Origin: Desulfosporosinus acidiphilus SJ4
GTDB taxonomy: Bacteria; Bacillota; Desulfitobacteriia; Desulfitobacteriales; Desulfitobacteriaceae
NCBI RefSeq assembly: GCF_000255115.2
Contig: NC_018068.1
Location: 682,001 to 746,000 of the forward strand
Reading direction: 5' to 3'
DNA: 64,000 nt
Shown piece by piece: positions 38,741-51,059 of the stretch. Both the position numbers and the translations under genes were made by a program. A model generated the notes under the pieces. That model was not told where the DNA came from and did not search any database. It worked only from the letters and a program-made list of their open reading frames with translations. Each line of letters starts with the position of its first letter. Within the stretch, counting starts at the first letter, position 1.

Positions 38741-38814
38741 ATACTTAAACACAAACTGTTTGGGAGCTTGTCCAAAGACTGCAATTTAAGATGTCATAAT
38801 TGGGAGGCTTGGCT

Positions 38815-40632
38815 ATGGAGTTTAAATACAATGTCCGGGATTTAAAATTTATTTTGAAAGAGTGGCTGCCGACAAAGGAAGTCTTAGAGTGTGATAGATT
38901 CAAGGATTTATACAGTCTGGAGGATATTGACCAAATTCTTACGGAAGGCTATAAAGTCTGCCGTGAGGTTATTAGTCCAATTAACGTGGTGGGCGATAGA
39001 AATCCGGCGGTATTTAATAATGGAGTCGTTACATCTCCGCCAGGCTATAAAGAAGTTTTCCAATTTATTCAGAAGAATGGATGGGGTTCCAGCAGCGAGT
39101 GCAGCAAATTAGAAGGCGGCATGCCCCTGATTATTTACAAGTCAGTATTTGAGATGATCGCAGCGGCCTGTCCGGCTATGGGCTCGAATATAAAATTAAC
39201 GTCGGGAGCCGCTAATGTGATTATTAATTTTGGGAGCGAAGACGATAAGAAAAGGTTTCTTCCCAAGATGTTAAGCGGGGAATGGCAGGGAACGATGAAT
39301 CTTACCGAACCTTCTGCCGGTTCCGATGTGGGTGATGCCTTAACAAAGTCTTATCCCACAGATGATCCAAAAGTCTATAAAATCAAAGGTACTAAGATGT
39401 TTATTACTGCTGGGGATGGTTCAATTTGCGAAAATACCATCCACTTAGTTTTAGCGCGTCCTCCCCAAGGCTGCCAAGGTTCGGCAGGGTTAGGGCTGTA
39501 TATTGTTCCTAAGTTTTGGGTCAATGAAGACGGGAGTTTGGGTAAGCTCAATGATGTCACTACTGTAGCAGTTGAGCATAAGATGGGGCTTAAAGGTTCG
39601 GCTACCTGCATGCTGAACTATGGGGAGAATGACGAGTGTTTTGGCATTATGCTGGGTGCTCCGCCAGATGAGAAGGGACGATCTCAAGGTTTAGCGATGA
39701 TGTTTAGAATGATGAATGAATCCAGAATCGGAACAGGCCACAATGCTAACGCCCAAGCGTCTTCAGCCTATGCCCAGGCCTCTCTGTATGCTTGCCAAAG
39801 AATCCAGGGTTATATTAAAGGAGAACGTGTTCCCATTATAAAACACCCGGATGTGCGCAGAATGCTTATGGATATGAAGGCTCATACCGAAGGCATAAGA
39901 GCGATGATCTTTAAGGGCTATTTTAATTTAGATATCGCTGAAAATTCGGCAGATAAGGATAAGGCCCAAAAAAGTGCCGAAAGGGCAGCTATACTCACTC
40001 CTTTAATTAAGTGCTATGGCAGTGAGACAGCTGTTTTAATGAACTGCGAGGCGATGCAGGTATTAGGGGGAGTGGGCTATACTCAAGAGTTTCCCCTTGA
40101 ACAGTCCTTGAGAGATTCCAAAATCCTAACCATTTGGGAAGGAACGTCGTTTATTCATGCTCAGGACCTCGTTAAACGCAAAATGAGAATGGGTGATGGA
40201 AAGCCGTTTCTTAGCTGGATGAAGGATATAGAATCCTTTATTACTGTGAATGAAGGGACTGCAGGATTGGAAAGAGAGTTTATCAATCTTAGTCAGGCTT
40301 ATCATTGCCTGGCCGAAGTGAAAAATCTCTATGATTTTTGGCATCTTAACAAAAAGGACGAGTTAATCGGACTCTATGCTCTAAGAACGTTATATATATG
40401 TTCTATGGTTATGGTTGCATCCTGTTTGCTGGAGCAGTCTTTAGCTGCACAAAGAACAATGGCTGAATTGTCAGCAGACCACTATGATTTTAACTTCTAT
40501 CAAGGGAAAATTGCCTGCGCTAAGTACTATGCCAATAATATCTTGCCGGGTGTTTTTAACTTGACAGAAATAATAAGAAATACCGATCTTTCAATCCAGG
40601 AGTGTCCGGAAGACTCTCTTATCGTAAATTAA
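38815..40632 (+). CDS. Acyl-CoA dehydrogenase, long type, copy 3 (divergent)
   Basis: A 605-residue long acyl-CoA dehydrogenase. The ATG at 38815 (MEFKYNVRDLKFILKEW) lies 7 bases after GGGAGG; the earlier TTG overlaps that site. Motifs: MNLTEPSAGSDVGDALT, FWVNEDGSLGKLNDVTTVA, KMGLKGSATCMLNYGENDECFG, and KILTIWEGTSFIHA with the expected Glu. It differs from copies 1 and 2 in much of the C-terminal third, so its substrate probably differs. Last gene of the main operon; no terminator was clear before the next promoter. Confidence 0.94.
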   Translation: MEFKYNVRDLKFILKEWLPTKEVLECDRFKDLYSLEDIDQILTEGYKVCREVISPINVVGDRNPAVFNNGVVTSPPGYKEVFQFIQKNGWGSSSECSKLEGGMPLIIYKSVFEMIAAACPAMGSNIKLTSGAANVIINFGSEDDKKRFLPKMLSGEWQGTMNLTEPSAGSDVGDALTKSYPTDDPKVYKIKGTKMFITAGDGSICENTIHLVLARPPQGCQGSAGLGLYIVPKFWVNEDGSLGKLNDVTTVAVEHKMGLKGSATCMLNYGENDECFGIMLGAPPDEKGRSQGLAMMFRMMNESRIGTGHNANAQASSAYAQASLYACQRIQGYIKGERVPIIKHPDVRRMLMDMKAHTEGIRAMIFKGYFNLDIAENSADKDKAQKSAERAAILTPLIKCYGSETAVLMNCEAMQVLGGVGYTQEFPLEQSLRDSKILTIWEGTSFIHAQDLVKRKMRMGDGKPFLSWMKDIESFITVNEGTAGLEREFINLSQAYHCLAEVKNLYDFWHLNKKDELIGLYALRTLYICSMVMVASCLLEQSLAAQRTMAELSADHYDFNFYQGKIACAKYYANNILPGVFNLTEIIRNTDLSIQECPEDSLIVN

Positions 40633-40830
40633 ATAGGTAGCGGTCCTGAATTATCCTTAACCATAGATTGAACCCATCAATACGTTAGTGAGTGCCAAGG
40701 TTGTCGATGCTGATTATAAGAACGATGCTCTTTTAAAGGTTACAGTCATTATGGACGGCACCTACATAGGGTTGAAACAGTCGCAAGCAAGAGATATAGC
40801 CTCAATTATTAGACTATTGAAAATTGTTCC

Positions 40831-40860
40831 TTTACTTCGGTTGTCATCGTTCTATATAAT
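40831..40860 (+). promoter_or_regulatory. Sigma-A-type promoter of the second sigma-54 activator
   Basis: TTTACT (40831-40836), 18 bases, TATAAT (40855-40860), 35 bases before the activator start. Same layout as the promoter at 24381-24410. Confidence 0.65.
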
Positions 40861-40895
40861 GGTGATAGAAGATGCAATATAAGTGGGGGATAAAT

Positions 40896-42296
40896 ATGAG
40901 TACCGGAGTCCATGCTGTGACAACCAGTAATTTTCCGCAATGGGATCGAGAGCTCCTCTTCCGAATTATGGACAACATTCACGATGTGGTACTTGTTATT
41001 GATACCGATACGACCATTGTCTATGCCAACGAGGCTTATGCGAGGATATTAGGGGTACCGGTGGAGAAAGTCTTAGGCCGCAGGCTGGATAAAATTGAAC
41101 CCAAATCAGAAGCGATTAAGTTAATGCGCAGCGGAAAGTCCTTTCATATGGGGAAAGACTATTTGGATTCTTTGGGTATTGATGTCGTAGGCAGCTCCTT
41201 TCTTTTAAACGATGGACACGGAATCATTGGCTGTGTTTCAATCTTCAAAAACATTTCCGAAGTTATAGAATTAAATCGTGAGCTGGAGCAAACGAAAGGC
41301 GTGGCAGATTATTTGAAAGAGCAGTTAGAACAGTGGGAACAACTGCCTCTTTCTTTTAAAGAATACGTGGGACAAAACAGTAATTTGAAGGAAACCTTGG
41401 TGTTAGCGGCAAAGGTGGCTAAAACAGACAGCACCGTTTTAATCCGGGGGGAAAGCGGTGTGGGCAAAGAAGTATTAGCCAGGGCGGTACATAATAGCAG
41501 CCGCCGCAAGGATAAGCCTTTGATTAAGGTAAATTGTGCTGCCATCAATGATAACCTGATTGAAAGTGAATTGTTCGGGTATGAGGAGGGCGCCTTTACA
41601 GGGGCTAAAAGGGGAGGGAAGCTCGGTAAGTTTGAGCTGGCTCATAGCGGCACGATTTTCCTGGACGAAATCGGTGATATGAGTATTACTATGCAAGCCA
41701 AGTTACTGCGCGTACTGCAAGAAAAAGAATTTGAGCGGGTAGGCGGTACGAAAACAATCAAAGTTGATATACGGGTGATTGCTGCCACAAATAGGGACTT
41801 AGAAACCATGATTAAAGAAGGTACCTTCCGGCGTGATTTGTATTATCGCTTAAACATTGTCCCTCTAAATCTTGCTCCCCTCAGAGAACGAAAAGATGAC
41901 ATCTTAGCCTTATCTAAAACATTCCTGGAACGGTTTGCCCGGGAGATCGGCCATGAACTGACACTGTCTCCCCAAGTTGTAAGGTTTTTTCAGGAGTATG
42001 ACTGGCCAGGCAACATTCGAGAATTGCAAAACGTACTTGAACATGCAAGTATTGTCTGCAATGGCACATCGATTGAAATGTTTCATTTGCCATCACAGGT
42101 GCTTCACCTTAACGACGACCAGTTAAAAGTTAGGAGTAAGTCCCAAACTGTTAAGGAAATCGTTGCTTCCCTGGAAAAGGAACTTATTTTATCAGCCTTA
42201 GCAACTAATAAGAATAACCGGACTAAGGCTATGAAAGAATTAGGGTTTTCCAGGCGAGTGTTTTACGATAAATTGCGACGTTACGGTATTGAATGA
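40896..42296 (+). CDS. Sigma-54-dependent activator, PAS-AAA-Fis, paralogue 2
   Basis: A 466-residue enhancer-binding protein, close paralogue of the one at 24444 along its full length (both begin [11 protein letters not shown]). ATG at 40896 after GGGGGA. PAS domain about 20-125; AAA+ with GESGVGKE, the GAFTGA loop, [10 protein letters not shown]-terminal HTH with [22 protein letters not shown]. The PAS domains differ most (for example [13 protein letters not shown] against [12 protein letters not shown]), so the two may answer different signals while binding similar enhancers. It sits between the main beta-oxidation operon and the next one, which has its own -24/-12 promoter. Confidence 0.93.
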
Positions 42297-42392
42297 GCGG
42301 AACAGAGCGATCATAGACGAATTAGTAAGAGCAGATGTGTGTTTTACGCACAAATTTTAAATTAAAAACAGGTTTTTGTACCATAATCATAC

Positions 42393-42447
42393 ACCTATCA
42401 AAACACCTCCTGAGGTCATTAGTCTCTCAGGAGGTGTTTTGATAGGT
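42393..42447 (+). terminator. Perfect 22-bp hairpin after the second activator
   Basis: Arms at 42393-42414 and 42426-42447 pair without mismatch across an 11-base loop; the core is CACCTCCTGAG/CTCAGGAGGTG. About 100 bases after the activator stop. No U tract after the stem, so it may be a weak terminator or a processing or binding site. Confidence 0.55.
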
Positions 42448-42529
42448 ATATGAGCTAATCTCCACACCGTAACTCATCACGCATACTCCTGCTTGTGGAT
42501 TGGCCGAGTGTCTCTGAAGCCAAACAAGT

Positions 42530-42545
42530 GCGAAGACAGTGTCTC
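42530..42545. repeat. Short dispersed repeat GCGAAGACAGTGTCTC, copy 2
   Basis: Identical to 14855-14870. Followed by GGCCAGCTAAG-TTTTC, similar to GTCAGCTAAGCTTTC after the related site at 51188. Non-coding. Confidence 0.5.
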
Positions 42546-42571
42546 TGAGGGCCAGCTAAGTTTTCTATACT

Positions 42572-42587
42572 TGGCATAAATATTGCT
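42572..42587 (+). promoter_or_regulatory. Sigma-54 (-24/-12) promoter of the acd-fadN-fadA operon
   Basis: TGGCATAAATATTGCT: GG at 42573-42574 and GC at 42585-42586, 10 bases apart, -12 part TTGC matching consensus. About 160 bases before the acyl-CoA dehydrogenase start. The best match of the three in the window. Confidence 0.75.
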
Positions 42588-42743
42588 TAGAGAATTAGTA
42601 TAAAATTTCTAAGTTTTTCGGAAAAGGAGTGTTCAATAATTATGATCTAGGCTAATTAAAGAAGACCAGGAAATCCATGGATTTCTAATAACGATTGGTT
42701 AGAGATTCTGGAATATCAATTTTAAAATGAAAGGATGAGTCTC

Positions 42744-44558
42744 ATGGCAAGTAATTTTATTTACAGCAACAGGGATCATAAATTTATTTTCAAAGAATGG
42801 CTGGATTGCAAAAAGATTCTTGGTTTAAAGCGTTTTCGGGATTATCTCTCTATTGAGGATGTCGATGGAATCCTCGACCAGTCCCTGAAGGTGTGCAGAG
42901 ACGTGGTTGCTCCAACTAATGATGATGGTGACACCATCGGCGCAAGATTTCATGATGGAAAAGTAACAGTTCCGCCATCCTTTCACAAGGCTTTTCGATT
43001 TCTTCACGACAATGGGTGGGGGGCCAGCAACAATGACGTAGACGGAGAAGGAGCTCTTCCGGAGATCCTTAACCAGGCTGTCCGTGAGTATATTATTGGG
43101 GCTAATCCCTCCATGTCCCCCTATATTGGTCTGAGCGGCGGAATTGCTTCTGTGATCAAGGCCTTTGGCTCTCAGGAGCAGATTGCTCTTTATACTCCGA
43201 AAATGTTCGAAGGAGTTTGGGAGGGCACTATGTGCTTAACGGAACCCGGCGGAGGTTCTGATGTGGGGGATATGACTTCCAAAGCTTATCCCACCGATGA
43301 CCCATTAATTTATAAAGTCAAAGGAACAAAATGTTTTATTACCGGAGGAGATCATGATCTTACTGAAAACATCATTCATCTGGTGCTTGCTCGAATTGAC
43401 GGAGCTGCTCCGGGGACTAAAGGTTTGTCTCTATTTATTGTTCCCAAAATTTGGGTCAATGAAGACGGCAGTTTAGGCGAATCCAATGATGTTGCTACCG
43501 TGGGCATCGAACATAAAATGGGTCTTAAAGGTTCGGCAACCGCTGTACTTAGCTTCGGAGAAGAGGGGTATTGCCGGGGTGTCTTGTTAGGGAGCGCGCC
43601 TGATGAAAATGGCGTAGGACAAGGCATGGCACAAATGTTTAAGATGATCAATGGTTCCCGGATGGATACCGGACACAGTGCTTTAGCAGTAGCTACAGTG
43701 GCTTACAACAATGCTGTCAACTATGCCAGAGAGCGTATTCAGGGCCGCCCCATTACTAATCCTAAAGGGAATCGTGTACCCATTATTCAGCATGAAGATG
43801 TCCGGCGGATGCTTATAACACAGAAGGCAACGTTGGAAGCTATGCGGGCCATGATTTTCAAAGGATATTATTATATCGACTTAATCGAGCATGGAGATGA
43901 TCCGGAAGACATTCATTCCGCTAAACGTTCCCTTGAAGTTATCACCCCTCTGGTCAAAGCTTATTGTTCCGATCAGGGATGGCTCATGATTACGGAAGCT
44001 ATTCAAGTTTTAGGGGGCTATGGGTATACCGAAGAATATCCCATCGCTCGTCAAGCCAGAGATGTAAAAATTTATTCTATCTGGGAGGGCACTAATTTTA
44101 TTCAGTCCATGGATCTTGTGGGTCGTAAGTGGAATCTGGATAAAGGAAATGTCTTCAGGGAGTGGATGATGGAGCTGGCAGCATTTGTCCAAGCTAATCA
44201 GAACCATGACACCTTTGCCCGTGAATTCGCGGTATTAGGCAAAGCCTTATTAGCTTATCAAGACCTGGTGAGCACAGTTCTCGGTTACTATAAAGAAAAT
44301 ATCCGGCTGGTCCCGCTCTATAGTACAAGAATTTTGCGGATTACTGCCGAACTTTATGGAGGATGCTTATTAATGCAGCAAGCACTGGTCGCCAAAGAAA
44401 AGCTTGCTCAAGGAAATATTGACCAAGACTTTTACAACGGTAAGATTCAGTCGGCGAAATTCTTTGTGCTTAATATCGTCCCTGATGTAGCGGCAACCGT
44501 AAGAATTATTAAGGAAGCCGATACTTCAGCTATGGACATACCGGAAGCAGCTTTTTAA
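42744..44558 (+). CDS. Acyl-CoA dehydrogenase, long type, copy 2
   Basis: Close paralogue of the enzyme at 31410: 604 residues, same motifs (MCLTEPGGGSDVGDM, EHKMGLKGSATAVLSF, KIYSIWEGTNFIQSMD). ATG at 42744 (MASNF) lies 8 bases after AAGGA; a start three codons upstream overlaps the site. First gene of a sigma-54-type operon with fadN- and fadA-like genes, which gives a full set for one beta-oxidation turn. Confidence 0.94.
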   Translation: MASNFIYSNRDHKFIFKEWLDCKKILGLKRFRDYLSIEDVDGILDQSLKVCRDVVAPTNDDGDTIGARFHDGKVTVPPSFHKAFRFLHDNGWGASNNDVDGEGALPEILNQAVREYIIGANPSMSPYIGLSGGIASVIKAFGSQEQIALYTPKMFEGVWEGTMCLTEPGGGSDVGDMTSKAYPTDDPLIYKVKGTKCFITGGDHDLTENIIHLVLARIDGAAPGTKGLSLFIVPKIWVNEDGSLGESNDVATVGIEHKMGLKGSATAVLSFGEEGYCRGVLLGSAPDENGVGQGMAQMFKMINGSRMDTGHSALAVATVAYNNAVNYARERIQGRPITNPKGNRVPIIQHEDVRRMLITQKATLEAMRAMIFKGYYYIDLIEHGDDPEDIHSAKRSLEVITPLVKAYCSDQGWLMITEAIQVLGGYGYTEEYPIARQARDVKIYSIWEGTNFIQSMDLVGRKWNLDKGNVFREWMMELAAFVQANQNHDTFAREFAVLGKALLAYQDLVSTVLGYYKENIRLVPLYSTRILRITAELYGGCLLMQQALVAKEKLAQGNIDQDFYNGKIQSAKFFVLNIVPDVAATVRIIKEADTSAMDIPEAAF

Positions 44559-44705
44559 GGGGGAGCACTGAATGATCGGTCATTCAGCACGCCATTAATT
44601 TGAATTGGGAAACTTCATGACTCTAATTCTGGACTTGTTAAATCCATCTTGAACTGGAGCAGAAGTTTAGTTTCAGTTATCTCACAAAACGAGAGGGGGA
44701 TATCA

Positions 44706-47087
44706 ATGCAGATTCATAAAGTAGCGGTCATAGGGTCCGGCGTGATGGGAAGTACCATCGCTGCTCATTTGGCTAATGCCGGGATCCCAAGCCTATTGTT
44801 GGATATTGTCCCATCCAAGCTGTCTGCTAAAGAGGAAGCGGCCGGTTTAACACTTGAGGACAAAAGAGTCAGAAACAGTATAGCCGAACAAAACAAGTTA
44901 AATTTGCTGAATCCTGCTCCATTCCTGGTTCCGGAATTTGCAGAGCGAATCGAGGTTGGAAACATCAGTGATGATTTAGGGCGTTTAAACGAAGTCGATT
45001 GGGTTATCGAGGTCGTTGTTGAACGACTTGATATTAAGAAAGATCTCTTCAAAAAGGTTGCCGCAGTGGTTCGTCCGGGAACCATTGTCACTTCCAATAC
45101 CTCGGGGATTTCGCTGAAGGCTATGGTGGAAGGGCTGCCGGAAAGCTTCACGCGATATTTCTGCGGAACCCACTTCTTTAATCCGCCGCGCTACATGAAA
45201 CTTTTAGAGATTATTCCCGGGCCTGATACCGACTCGAATGTGATTGCGTTTATGAAAGAGTTTGGCGAACGCGTCTTGGGCAAAGGCGTGGTCATGTGTA
45301 AAGATACGCCTAACTTCATAGCTAATCGTATTGGAGCTATCGGTTCCCCTGTTCTGCTAAAGGAAATGCTCCGTTTGGGGCTGACAGTTGAGGAAGTCGA
45401 TGCTTTAACGGGACCTGTTATGGGACGCCCGAAGAGTGCATCCTTCAGGTTAATCGACCTCGTTGGTCTGGATGTTTTCATCCATTCTAATAATAATGTT
45501 GCCAACGGAGTTCCAGAGGAGAAAGATGATTTCGTTTTGCCAGAGTTCATCTTTACCATGCAGAAAAACGGCTGGCTAGGAGATAAAACGAAACAGGGCT
45601 TTTACAAGAAATCAAAAGGCCCCAAAGGCAAGGTCATTGAAGTTTTGGACGTCAAAACCATGACCTACGGTCCGCAAAAGAGTGTGAGTTTTCCCTGCCT
45701 GGAAAAGGCCAAAGCGGCTAAAGGCCTGCCCGAGAAACTCCGTACCTTAGTCAGCAGTGATGATGTCGGGTCAGAGTTTGCTTGGAATGTATTAAAACCA
45801 ACGCTTCTCTACGCAGCTAATTTAGTCAAAGACATTGCTGAGGATATTACCGGAATCGACGAAGGCATGCGCTGGGGTTATAACTGGGAACTGGGTCCCT
45901 TTGAATTATGGGATGCTCTTGGAGTAAAAGCAACAGCGGATCGTATTGCCGCTGAAGGCGGGAAACTGCCGGCTATTGTAGAAGAATTGCTCTCCAAAGG
46001 GTATGAGAGATTCTATCGCAAGACTGAAGCCGGTGAGATCACCTATTATGATCATGGCGAATATCGACAGAAAACGGTGAGCCAATATTCCTGCTCTCTG
46101 AAGCAGGCTCATAAGACCGGCAAAGTCATTATTGGCAATGCCGGAGCAAGCTTAATAGATTTAGGAGACGGGGTTGCCTGCTTAGAATTCCATTCTCCCA
46201 ACAACTCGATTACCACCGATGTTGTGGAGATGATCTACAAGTCGCTGGAAGAAGTCGAGAAAAATTACACAGGCATGGTCATTGGCAACCAAGGCAAGAA
46301 TTTCTGCGTGGGTGCTAACCTAGTGGATATCCTGCGGGAGGCAGAAAAAGGGAACTGGTCGGATCTGGATCAGGGCATTCGTCAATTACAGAATGCGACG
46401 ATGGCTTTGAAATATGCCAAAAAGCCTGTAGTAGCGGCTCCCTTTGGTATGACCCTGGGCGGCGGAGCGGAGGTATGTCTGCACTCTCATGCTATTCAGG
46501 CTTCCTCCGAAACCTATATGGGTCTTGTTGAAGTTGGTGTGGGTTTAATTCCTGCCGGTGGTGGAACGAAGGAAATGGCTGTTCGGGCCATGGAAGGAAT
46601 TTTACCGGGAGTTCAAGTTGCTCCGGACTATTTCTTCGCCAAACGCTTTGAAGTAATAGCAATGGCACAAGTCTCTACAAGTGCGGAAAAGGCTCGTCAG
46701 CTGGGCTTTTTACGAGACCACGACCGTTACAGCATGAACCCGGATCATATTATTATGGATGCTAAAGCACGGGTTGAGGATCTGGCTCAAAACTTCAGAC
46801 CTAATTTGTCGACGAAGGTGAAAATTGCGGGTCCAGGTGTTCGCGGTACTTTGGAATTGGCCATGTATGGAATGCTTGAAGGTCGTTACATCTCAGAGTA
46901 TGACCGGCATCTCGGCAATAAACTGGCTTATGCCATTACCGGCGGAGACCGCCCCGCAGGCATGCTCGTCGATGAGCAATATCTCTTAGATTTAGAGCGT
47001 GAAGTCTTTTTGAGTTTGCTTGGGGAAGCGAAGACCTTGGACCGCATTCGCCATATGCTCACTAAAGGCAAGCCATTACGGAATTAG
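44706..47087 (+). CDS. fadN: 3-Hydroxyacyl-CoA dehydrogenase/enoyl-CoA hydratase fusion
   Basis: Two-step enzyme of fatty-acid oxidation, FadN-like, 793 residues. ATG at 44706 ([15 protein letters not shown]) has GAGGGGGA upstream; an in-frame start 19 codons before it is unlikely. The dehydrogenase part comes first (Rossmann [26 protein letters not shown] with catalytic His, and C-terminal helical domains to about 480). A crotonase-like domain follows (about 490-700): [28 protein letters not shown] and [16 protein letters not shown] with expected Glu residues. Order is the same as in Bacillus FadN. It is 11 bases before the thiolase gene. Confidence 0.94.
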
Positions 47088-47098
47088 GGGGGAAAACC

Positions 47099-48256
47099 AT
47101 GCAAGAAGCGTACATTATCCAAGCGAAGCGGACGGCCATTGGAAAATCGGCCAGGGGAGCTTTAGCTCAGGTCCGCCCGGATGATCTAGGTGCCTTTGTA
47201 ATCCAAGACGTTGTAAAAAATGTTCCTGCCCTTAAAACGGAAGAAATAGAAGACCTTGTACTCGGCTGTTCTTTTCCGGAAGGCGAGCAGGGAATGAATA
47301 TGGCCAGAATTATAGCCCTGCGCGCCGGTCTTCCCATCGACGTTCCTGGCGTGACGATTAATCGATTTTGTTCATCAGGACTTCAGGCAATTTCCATGGC
47401 CGCGGATAGAATTCGCTTGGGTGAAGCTGATGTGATGCTCGCAGGCGGAGCAGAGAGTATGTCATTGGTTCCCATGGGCGGAAGTAAACCGGCCCCCAAT
47501 CCTTTTATGCTCGTTAATGCTCCGGAAGTCTATCTCTCCATGGGCATAACCGCTGAGAATGTGGCAAAAAAATATGAAATTACTCGGGAACAGCAGGATG
47601 CTTTTGCTGCACGAAGCCATCAAAAGGCCTGGGCTGCTCAAAGCAGCGGGCGCTTTGATGATGAGATTGTTCCGATTCCCTTGCCGACTTGGGGGAAGCC
47701 GGGGGAGAAATGGTTCACGAAAGATGAGGGGATACGCCCGGAGACCACAGCAGAAACTTTGGCTAAACTTCGGCCCGCTTTTATGAACGGAGGCTCAGTC
47801 ACAGCAGGGAACTCGTCCCAGACTAGTGACGGAGCGGCTATGACCCTTCTCATGTCAGAACAGAAAGTCAAAACTCTTGGCTTAAAACCCTTAGCGGTTT
47901 GGCGCGGATTTGCGGTTGCCGGAGTAGAACCGGAACTGATGGGAATCGGCCCCATCAAGGCTATCCCTAAAGTACTGAAGCAAGTCGGCTTAAAGCTTGA
48001 GGACATTGATATCTTTGAACTGAACGAAGCCTTTGCATCACAATCGCTGGCGATCCTTAAGACGCTGGACATTGACCCGGAGAAAGTAAATCCTAATGGC
48101 GGAGCCATTGCTTTAGGCCATCCTTTGGGCTGTACGGGAGCTAAGCTCACAGCAACCTTACTCCATGAATTGATTAAGCAGAAGAAAAAATACGGAATAG
48201 TTACCATGTGCATAGGCGGTGGTATGGGAGCAGCAGGAGTTTACGAATTGCTCTAA
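47099..48256 (+). CDS. fadA: Acetyl-CoA C-acyltransferase (FadA-like thiolase)
   Basis: A 385-residue thiolase that pairs with FadN. Cys91 in [12 protein letters not shown], His in GHPLGCTGA, second Cys in [12 protein letters not shown] at 47099 with GGGGGGA upstream, 11 bases after fadN. Different from the two thiolases in the main operon (NRFCSSG, not RQCGS), and nearer to the long-chain FadA type. Last gene before a strong terminator. Confidence 0.95.
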
Positions 48257-48795: not shown

Positions 48796-48982
48796 GGTTA
48801 TACCTCCTTTAGTTGATACAAGTTATTTTCCCAAATATCCGGCAAGCTAAACAATAGTTTGACGCAACAACTTTTCACGGGGAGAATAATAATTTTGCAG
48901 GCATTCTTCATGTTCTAGCATGTACATATTTAGGTATTCTGATGTACAAACTTTGTATAGTAATTCAAAAGGAGGATAGGCA

Positions 48983-50896
48983 ATGACTGAAACAATCTTA
49001 GAAAGATCTGAAGGAAGGGTAAGTTATCACGATTCCGTTGAAGAAATGCTGCCCAGAATTCGAGAGGACGGAATGTCTAACGTTTTTGACCGTTGGACGA
49101 AACAGGAAAAAATCCGCTGTAATTTTTGCCTGCAGGGGCTTAGCTGTCAGCAGTGTTCCAACGGACCTTGCCGGATCAGCGAGAAGAGCGGTCAAGACAA
49201 GGGCGTTTGTGGAATTGGAGCCGATGCAATGGCTATGAGGAAACTGCTGCTGCAAAATATTATGGGCGCAGGGACCTACAGTCATCACGCTTACGAAGCA
49301 TTTCGTACTCTTCGGGCAACGGGAGAAGGTAAAACCCCCTTTAAAATCACTGATGTTAATAAACTAAAGTGGATGTGCGAAACTCTTGGCATTAATGCCA
49401 ATCAGGATGTTAATCAGATGGCAATTCAATTGGCAGACCTTCTCAACAACCAGATGAATATTGGCACAGAAGAACCTAACCTCATGGTGGAAGCCTTTGC
49501 CCCCAAAAAAAGAAAAAAGATTTGGAGAGATCTACATATCTATCCGGCGGGGACTGTGCATGAGGAACAGAACTGTGTGGCGAGCTGTCTGACTAATGTT
49601 GACGGAGATTATGTTTCCTTGGCCTTGAAAGCTCTGAGACTTGGATTATCAACCATCTATAATTCTCAGATTGGACTGGAAATGGTTCAGGATATTTTGT
49701 TTGGCACACCTCAACCTCATGAAGTTAATGTCGATCTTGGAATTATGGATCCTGACTACGTTAATATTGTTTTTAACGGGCACCAACCCTGGGCTGGGGT
49801 GGCGACGATTCAAAAGGCCAAAACTCCGGAAATTCAAGCCAAGGCCAAAGCGGCCGGGGCCAAAGGTTTGAGAGTTGTCGGTTCTATTGAAACCGGGCAA
49901 GAGCTGCTCCAAAGGTTTCCTGTAGATGATGTTTTTGTGGGACTTATGGGAAATTGGCTGTCCATAGAACCTCTACTGGCAACCGGTACCGTCGATGTCA
50001 TGGCTATGGAAGAAAATTGCTCTCCGCCGGCCATTGATATGTATGCGGAAAAATATCAAGTGACTCTTGTCAGTGTCAGCACAATTATCGGAGTACCGGG
50101 ACTTGAACATAAAATCCCTTACCATCCCAATGAAGTCGAGAGTATGGCAGATCAACTGATCAATTTGGGGATTGAAAATTTTAAAAAGCGTCATGGGAAG
50201 ATTACAGCTAAGGTTCCTAAAATCACCCAAAAGGCCATAGCTGGGTTTTCTACGGAAGCCGTTTTAGGAGCTTTAGGTAATAAGCTCGATCCTCTTGTCG
50301 ATGTGATAGCTGCAGGCAAGATCAAAGGGGTTGTTGCTTTAGCTAACTGTTCAACGCTGCGCAACGGTCCCCAGGATTGGAATACGGTGAACTTAACTAA
50401 AGAATTGATAAAACGAGATATTTTGGTTGTTGCAGGTGGCTGCGGAAATCATGCCTTGGAAGTAGCGGGGCTTTGCAATCTTGATGCCGTGAAGATGGCA
50501 GGCAAAGGTTTAGGCGAAGTATGCGGTTCCTTAAAGATACCGCCTGTGTTGAGCTTCGGAACCTGTACCGATACTGGGAGAATTTCCATGTTGGTAACAG
50601 CCTTAGCAGATCATCTTGACGTAGATGTTCCTCAATTGCCGATTGCGGTAACCGCTCCTGAGTGGATGGAACAAAAAGCCACTATTGACGGGGTTTTTGC
50701 TGTAGCCTATGGTGCCTATACGCACCTGTCTCCGACTCCTTTCGTGACCGGTGCTCCCCAACTCGTGAAACTCTTGACTCAAGATGTGGAAGGATTAACG
50801 GGAGGGAAGATCGCGCTTGGGGACGATCCTGTGGAAGTTGCCAATAATATTGAAGCCCATATTATTAGCAAACGAAAAGGGTTAGGATTAAGTTAG
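48983..50896 (+). CDS. cooS: CooS-type nickel CO dehydrogenase homologue with altered cluster C
   Basis: A 637-residue homologue of the CODH catalytic subunit. Cluster B/D cysteines: C46, C49, C55, C58, C63 and C76 in RCNFCLQGLSCQQCSNGPC. C46 and C49 form a CX2C pair in place of the wider spacing, which in some CODHs goes with a [2Fe-2S] cluster D. For cluster C, His267 (GHQP), Cys346, Cys456, Cys487 and Cys528 are present, as is the catalytic Lys565, but the first Cys ligand (second C of GMCCTG in Moorella enzyme) is Glu303 in GSIETG. That set resembles the hybrid-cluster ligands of HCP. ATG at 48983 after AAAGGAGG. No cooC, cooF, acs or hydrogenase genes nearby. May not be a CO oxidase. Confidence 0.93.
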   Translation: MTETILERSEGRVSYHDSVEEMLPRIREDGMSNVFDRWTKQEKIRCNFCLQGLSCQQCSNGPCRISEKSGQDKGVCGIGADAMAMRKLLLQNIMGAGTYSHHAYEAFRTLRATGEGKTPFKITDVNKLKWMCETLGINANQDVNQMAIQLADLLNNQMNIGTEEPNLMVEAFAPKKRKKIWRDLHIYPAGTVHEEQNCVASCLTNVDGDYVSLALKALRLGLSTIYNSQIGLEMVQDILFGTPQPHEVNVDLGIMDPDYVNIVFNGHQPWAGVATIQKAKTPEIQAKAKAAGAKGLRVVGSIETGQELLQRFPVDDVFVGLMGNWLSIEPLLATGTVDVMAMEENCSPPAIDMYAEKYQVTLVSVSTIIGVPGLEHKIPYHPNEVESMADQLINLGIENFKKRHGKITAKVPKITQKAIAGFSTEAVLGALGNKLDPLVDVIAAGKIKGVVALANCSTLRNGPQDWNTVNLTKELIKRDILVVAGGCGNHALEVAGLCNLDAVKMAGKGLGEVCGSLKIPPVLSFGTCTDTGRISMLVTALADHLDVDVPQLPIAVTAPEWMEQKATIDGVFAVAYGAYTHLSPTPFVTGAPQLVKLLTQDVEGLTGGKIALGDDPVEVANNIEAHIISKRKGLGLS

Positions 50897-51009: not shown

Positions 51010-51059
51010 AAGGCGTTCTCACGTCACTATTATTGTGTATAGTGGAGTGAAAACGCCTT
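51010..51059 (+). terminator. Terminator after cooS
   Basis: Outer arms AAGGCGTT (51010-51017) and AACGCCTT (51052-51059), inner CACTAT/ATAGTG, then TCTTTATCC. A long stem with internal mismatches. Confidence 0.75.

Follow-up and report, generated by a model that had tools for sequence, protein, structure and literature searches.

The gene at positions 48983-50896 of the 64,000-nucleotide stretch of Desulfosporosinus acidiphilus SJ4 DNA analysed here (the window) very probably encodes a CooS-V-type homodimer in which the CO dehydrogenase (CODH) fold carries a nickel-free Fe/S/O hybrid cluster and acts as a low-potential reductase, not as a CO dehydrogenase. The protein is an ordinary, typical member of an already characterised group, and the novelty implied by an earlier sequence-only reading of this DNA falls away, as the same properties are already published for CooS-V of Carboxydothermus hydrogenoformans (CooS-V Ch). 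Being one more representative of such a group, the window protein carries little weight by itself. Databases continue to label the group as CO dehydrogenase, and tallies of CO-using bacteria are misled as a result. The features on which the argument draws are:

48924..48953, + strand: conserved bipartite promoter-like element ACATA-N18-CAAACTT, a possible forespore sigma-F/G promoter (upstream comparison)
48956-48961, + strand: TATAGT, just after the bipartite element
48970..48975, + strand: ribosome binding site AGGAGG (by eye)
48983..50896, + strand: cooS-V-type gene, 637 aa, CODH-fold hybrid-cluster protein of clade D structural group D-1 (ORF, homology, tree, predicted fold)
49118..49129, + strand: CX2C C46/C49 of a type III D-cluster (motif, alignment)
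49889..49891, + strand: codon GAA for Glu303, replacing cluster-C Cys295 in CODH-II numbering (alignment)
51010..51059, + strand: intrinsic terminator, a hairpin with a T-rich tail behind it (-25.9 kcal/mol, z -6.7)

The reading frame opens with ATG, runs for 637 codons and is free of defects. Its product is a member of the prismane/CO dehydrogenase family (PF03063) and scores 898 bits against a cut-off of 478 with the CODH model TIGR01702, which cannot separate CooS-V from true CODH, while the hybrid-cluster protein (HCP) model TIGR01703 gives 48 bits against a cut-off of 360.8. The best match in the PDB is CooS-V Ch (7b7q), with 62% identity over 625 residues and a phmmer E-value of 1.5e-263, compared with 9.6e-128 for the next PDB protein. 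An AlphaFold model of moderate confidence (mean pLDDT 72.9, with low values over residues 1-76 and in some loops) returned 'CooS-V with oxidized hybrid cluster' as its top Foldseek match (TM 0.87). The suggestion in the sequence-only reading that CODH-V of Carboxydothermus is a related case is thus confirmed by the best PDB match, the best fold match and a shared clade (SH-aLRT 100). These sequence comparisons identify the window protein as an orthologue of CooS-V or a close in-clade relative; one point that tells against our assignment is that the two proteins are 62%, and not 90%, identical.

We aligned the protein with CooS-V (7b7q), CODH-IV (6elq), a CODH of Thermococcus (6t7j) and both further CODHs that its own genome encodes. 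The segment GSIETG lies opposite GICCTG/GMCCTG of the CODHs without a gap, and Glu303 therefore corresponds to Cys295 of CODH-II, the position at which the sequence-only reading had placed it. That reading would have fallen had moving the gap brought a Cys to the ligand position. The Cys residues of the protein are at positions 46, 49, 55, 58, 63, 76, 132, 198, 202, 346, 456, 487, 498, 514 and 528, and because there is none from 203 to 345 no gap shift can restore the ligand. The five Cys and one His of functional Ni,Fe-CODHs are consequently incomplete, with Glu303 in the place of Cys295, and the remaining five cluster-C ligands (His267, Cys346, Cys456, Cys487 and Cys528) are kept; these positions and Lys565 had all been numbered correctly. 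Two further features had gone unmentioned: the acid-base His is replaced by Tyr99, and Glu563, which precedes Lys565 by two residues, is the equivalent of the second HCP carboxylate ligand. The resemblance to the HCP ligand set, noted earlier as His, Glu and four Cys, thus takes in a second Glu as well, so that one His, two Glu and four Cys occupy the hybrid-cluster positions. The unusual cluster D suspected from C46/C49 likewise proves to be the type III motif C46-X2-C49-X5-C55. All cluster ligands are identical to those of CooS-V, including E303, N345, E563 and the C-X2-C-X5-C D-cluster.

This combination was described before the CooS-V structure was determined. Inoue et al. (PMC6344411) defined the clade D structural group D-1 by a type III D-cluster, a Glu for the first C-cluster Cys, a Tyr for the acid-base His and an HCP-like Glu before the Lys, and pointed out that HCP has identical residues at the catalytic site. 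Nothing in the window protein departs from this group: it has Glu at Cys295, the type III D-cluster, Tyr99 and E563/K565, and falls in the clade of CooS-V Ch. The Glu two residues before the Lys is not itself diagnostic of D-1, as it is also found in D-2, D-3/4 and clade C-motif rows.

To place the exchange among relatives we compared 173 fetched loci and reference chains, a set whose rows are not independent, with some genomes occurring twice. Glu occupies position 303 in all 137 Glu-type rows, and 134 of them match the window protein at every one of 17 signature positions (two of the other three are truncated and one is degenerate); the 38 rows that belong to other clades all have Cys at position 303. 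A tree of 88 rows, a phylogeny that the sequence-only reading had itself proposed, groups the Glu-type proteins in a single clade (50 rows, SH-aLRT 100) that contains both CooS-V and the window protein, the latter among Desulfosporosinus. Rows that keep Cys303 and have D-2, D-3/4 or clade C motifs likewise carry Glu563 and Asn345, so these features probably predate the Cys-to-Glu exchange. Orthologues are near-universal in the bacterial family (most of 46 sampled genomes, 83-97% identity) and common in Clostridia, with many Clostridium species carrying one of about 80% identity. The gene is under strong purifying selection, with dN/dS of 0.016-0.019 against its nearest relatives, values that are approximate, dS being high for the more distant ones. 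An in-frame TGA in one relative (G158) was considered as selenocysteine and rejected, as it is a normal stop near residue 637. A CooS-V-clade protein found in one genome (L134, G213:C21:59435-61324) has an intact 637-residue frame in which all four hybrid-cluster Cys are lost (C346S, C456G, C487S and C528S, plus E563D and N345G), leaving a cluster-less active site, while the D- and B-cluster Cys, Tyr99, His267, Glu303 and Lys565 are kept.

The chemistry that we propose leans on the published characterisation of CooS-V Ch. In its structures (PDB 7B7Q, 7B7T, 7B95, 7B97 and 7B9A) Cys295 is replaced by Glu, the active site holds a nickel-free [4Fe-3S-nO] hybrid cluster and cluster D is a bridging [2Fe-2S] (PMC9311411). 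Both CO oxidation and CO2 reduction are absent, hydroxylamine is reduced very slowly (kcat 0.13 s-1) and NO reductase activity was not found; the active-site channel opens upon reduction, as for a reductase (PMC9311411). The low hydroxylamine activity and the negative NO result count against our assignment. The window protein shares with CooS-V Ch the fold, the Cys-to-Glu exchange, the second Glu (Glu556 in CooS-V Ch, Glu563 here), the B- and D-cluster motifs and the lack of C1 genes nearby, and differs from it in its sub-branch of the clade and in 38% of residues. The cluster itself, the absence of nickel, inactivity towards CO and the substrate class of the window protein are predicted from this homology, its regulation is likewise a prediction, and the earlier proposal of a nickel-free 4Fe-hybrid centre with redox chemistry other than CO oxidation is supported to that extent. 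In such a model the single Cys-to-Glu exchange at cluster C would enable the site to accommodate an iron-sulfur-oxo hybrid cluster that lacks nickel, in place of a Ni,Fe cluster. Electrons would enter at the bridging [2Fe-2S] (C46/C49) and pass through the cluster-B [4Fe-4S] (C55/C58/C63/C76) to a [4Fe-3S] site (H267, E303, C346, C456, C487, C528 and E563), which would be open to substrate only when reduced and would then bind a small oxidised molecule, presumably of the N-O or O-O type. The site would thereby be oxidised to a persulfide/oxo form and then re-reduced.

HCP (prismane), of which the genome has its own copy, shares with the window protein PF03063, the His/Glu/Cys ligand set, the predicted cluster type and the context of the second Glu (MEQKA versus YEQKA), but is only about 24% identical to it, and the window protein has a CODH-type D-cluster; that Glu303 pairs with the HCP Glu is taken from published structures, with MAFFT placing a gap there and hhalign covering residues 311-602 only. 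The Ni,Fe-CODHs of clades E/F (CODH-II, CODH-IV and AcsA) share the fold, the B-cluster, five of the six cluster-C ligands and the Lys, whereas the window protein has Glu for Cys295, Tyr for His93, a CX2C D-cluster and no adjoining Ni chaperone.

The gene is solitary, with a YggT gene divergent upstream and an amino acid permease convergent downstream, and its terminator makes it monocistronic. As had been noted from the sequence, cooC, cooF and acs do not adjoin it, nor do the Ni chaperone genes cooC/cooJ/cooT lie beside it. Elsewhere in the genome (an assembly of three contigs, 4.99 Mb) AcsA adjoins cooC and acs genes, and there are a second CODH with an FAD oxidoreductase (pyridine-nucleotide oxidoreductase) and the HCP. 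A conserved operon partner was rejected, as no conserved neighbour family emerged in 102 loci beyond local synteny, the largest cluster (22 of 102 loci) consisting just of response regulators and kinases merged via shared domains. According to a genomic-context study from 2026, 64% of clade D genes are without a neighbour; the study discussed redox sensing or stress roles (PMC13056359). Within the window, positions 38800-48256 hold a beta-oxidation type cluster that stops before the YggT gene (two acyl-CoA dehydrogenases, a sigma-54-type activator, a 3-hydroxyacyl-CoA dehydrogenase/enoyl-CoA hydratase fusion and a thiolase), and no link between it and cooS-V was seen.

Across the genus the upstream region carries the bipartite element ACATA-N18-CAAACTT, located 60 bp upstream of the cooS-V gene. 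When up to 2 mismatches are allowed, 21 of 22 other Desulfosporosinus upstreams contain it, compared with 0.22 expected from shuffled sequences, and a related form, GAAAACTT, occurs in 16 of 53 Clostridia orthologue upstreams (0.27 expected), 12 of the 16 with ACATA at the right distance. It is absent upstream of the gene at locus L174, which is identical to the CooS-V Ch gene. This element is a new finding and a concrete regulatory lead on the physiological role of cooS-V, and its resemblance to forespore promoters of Clostridium SASP genes is suggestive only.

If the resemblance is meaningful, the protein of Desulfosporosinus and many Clostridium could be transcribed by sigma-F/sigma-G and could protect or prepare the spore against oxidants or N-oxides, a possibility that we put forward tentatively. 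It is compatible with the reductase assignment, as it concerns the time and place of protein action. Besides the conservation of the element in the genus and of the GAAAACTT form in Clostridia, there is no sigma-A -35 at the proper distance from TATAGT, and a matrix trained on cooS-V upstreams gives higher scores to those of SASP (p 6e-4) and spoIIR (p 1e-3) than to controls; gpr upstreams were left out because their start codons were too ambiguous, as was TIGR02871, which is ylbJ (mother cell). CAAACTT itself occurs in 5 of 20 Clostridium SASP upstreams versus 2 of 499 control upstreams (p 1e-6), but this comparison was picked after the motif had been seen and its rows share descent, and the motif is found in 0 of 10 SASP upstreams of the same genus and is not enriched across the window's own genome. 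Among the Bacillota genomes sampled, 44 of 45 that have the cooS-V gene carry SpoIIR, compared with 164 of 204 others, a contrast that ignores phylogeny, most CODH-bearing Bacillota being sporeformers anyway. Wider clade D is moreover reported in non-sporulating archaea (PMC13056359), and our literature search found no paper linking CODH with forespore expression and no transcription data. Forespore expression of cooS-V is conceivable but unlikely, and the general proposal that Clostridia CooS-V-type proteins are sigma-F/sigma-G forespore proteins, with the Fe/S/O CODH scaffold serving spore formation, dormancy or germination, is if anything more doubtful. If true, this general proposal would account for the solitary gene, the absent CO response and the missing vegetative phenotype. 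A genome-wide regulon of the full element was rejected, as nothing rose above control and the genome has just one copy of the full element. At another locus (L077), AAAACTT and GCAAACTA boxes lie upstream of a Ku-like DNA-end-binding gene (named by eye). Bacillus subtilis expresses its Ku in the forespore, and these boxes favour forespore expression anecdotally.

A different role, advanced for clades C and D (eLife 2026, PMC13056359), is that of a redox sensor or regulator, in which rearrangement of the hybrid cluster is the signal and turnover is incidental. The very slow turnover of CooS-V (PMC9311411), the active CODHs in the same genome and the solitary gene all point this way, but no sensor or output domain has been added to the protein, the 102 loci lack a conserved partner gene, and the reductase-like opening of the CooS-V channel on reduction (PMC9311411) tells against it; we regard this role as improbable but not negligible. 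That the protein is instead a true Ni-CODH, with Glu303 replacing Cys as the pendant-iron ligand and slow CO oxidation retained, is highly improbable despite the five of six cluster-C ligands and Lys565 that are kept and hints from genetics that certain D-1 proteins of Methanosarcina acetivorans are involved in CO oxidation (Inoue et al., PMC6344411), since CooS-V with like residues is without Ni and without CO/CO2 activity (PMC9311411), the published C295E variant of CODH-II loses both Ni and CO oxidation, Tyr99 replaces the acid-base His, and no cooC/cooJ/cooT lies alongside, whereas the genome's AcsA adjoins cooC.

Finally, we compared the control of cooS-V, as the gene of the proposed hybrid-cluster reductase, with that of the HCP gene. 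An HcpR/FNR-type palindrome was considered for cooS-V and rejected, being absent from its upstream region. The genome's own HCP gene (L004) is preceded by a perfect CRP/FNR/HcpR-like palindrome, GTGTGA-N6-TCACAC (G000:C3:4657180-4657197), and the genome contains no other exact match to this extended palindrome (core TGTGA-N6-TCACA). It is therefore probable that the two hybrid-cluster proteins are regulated differently.
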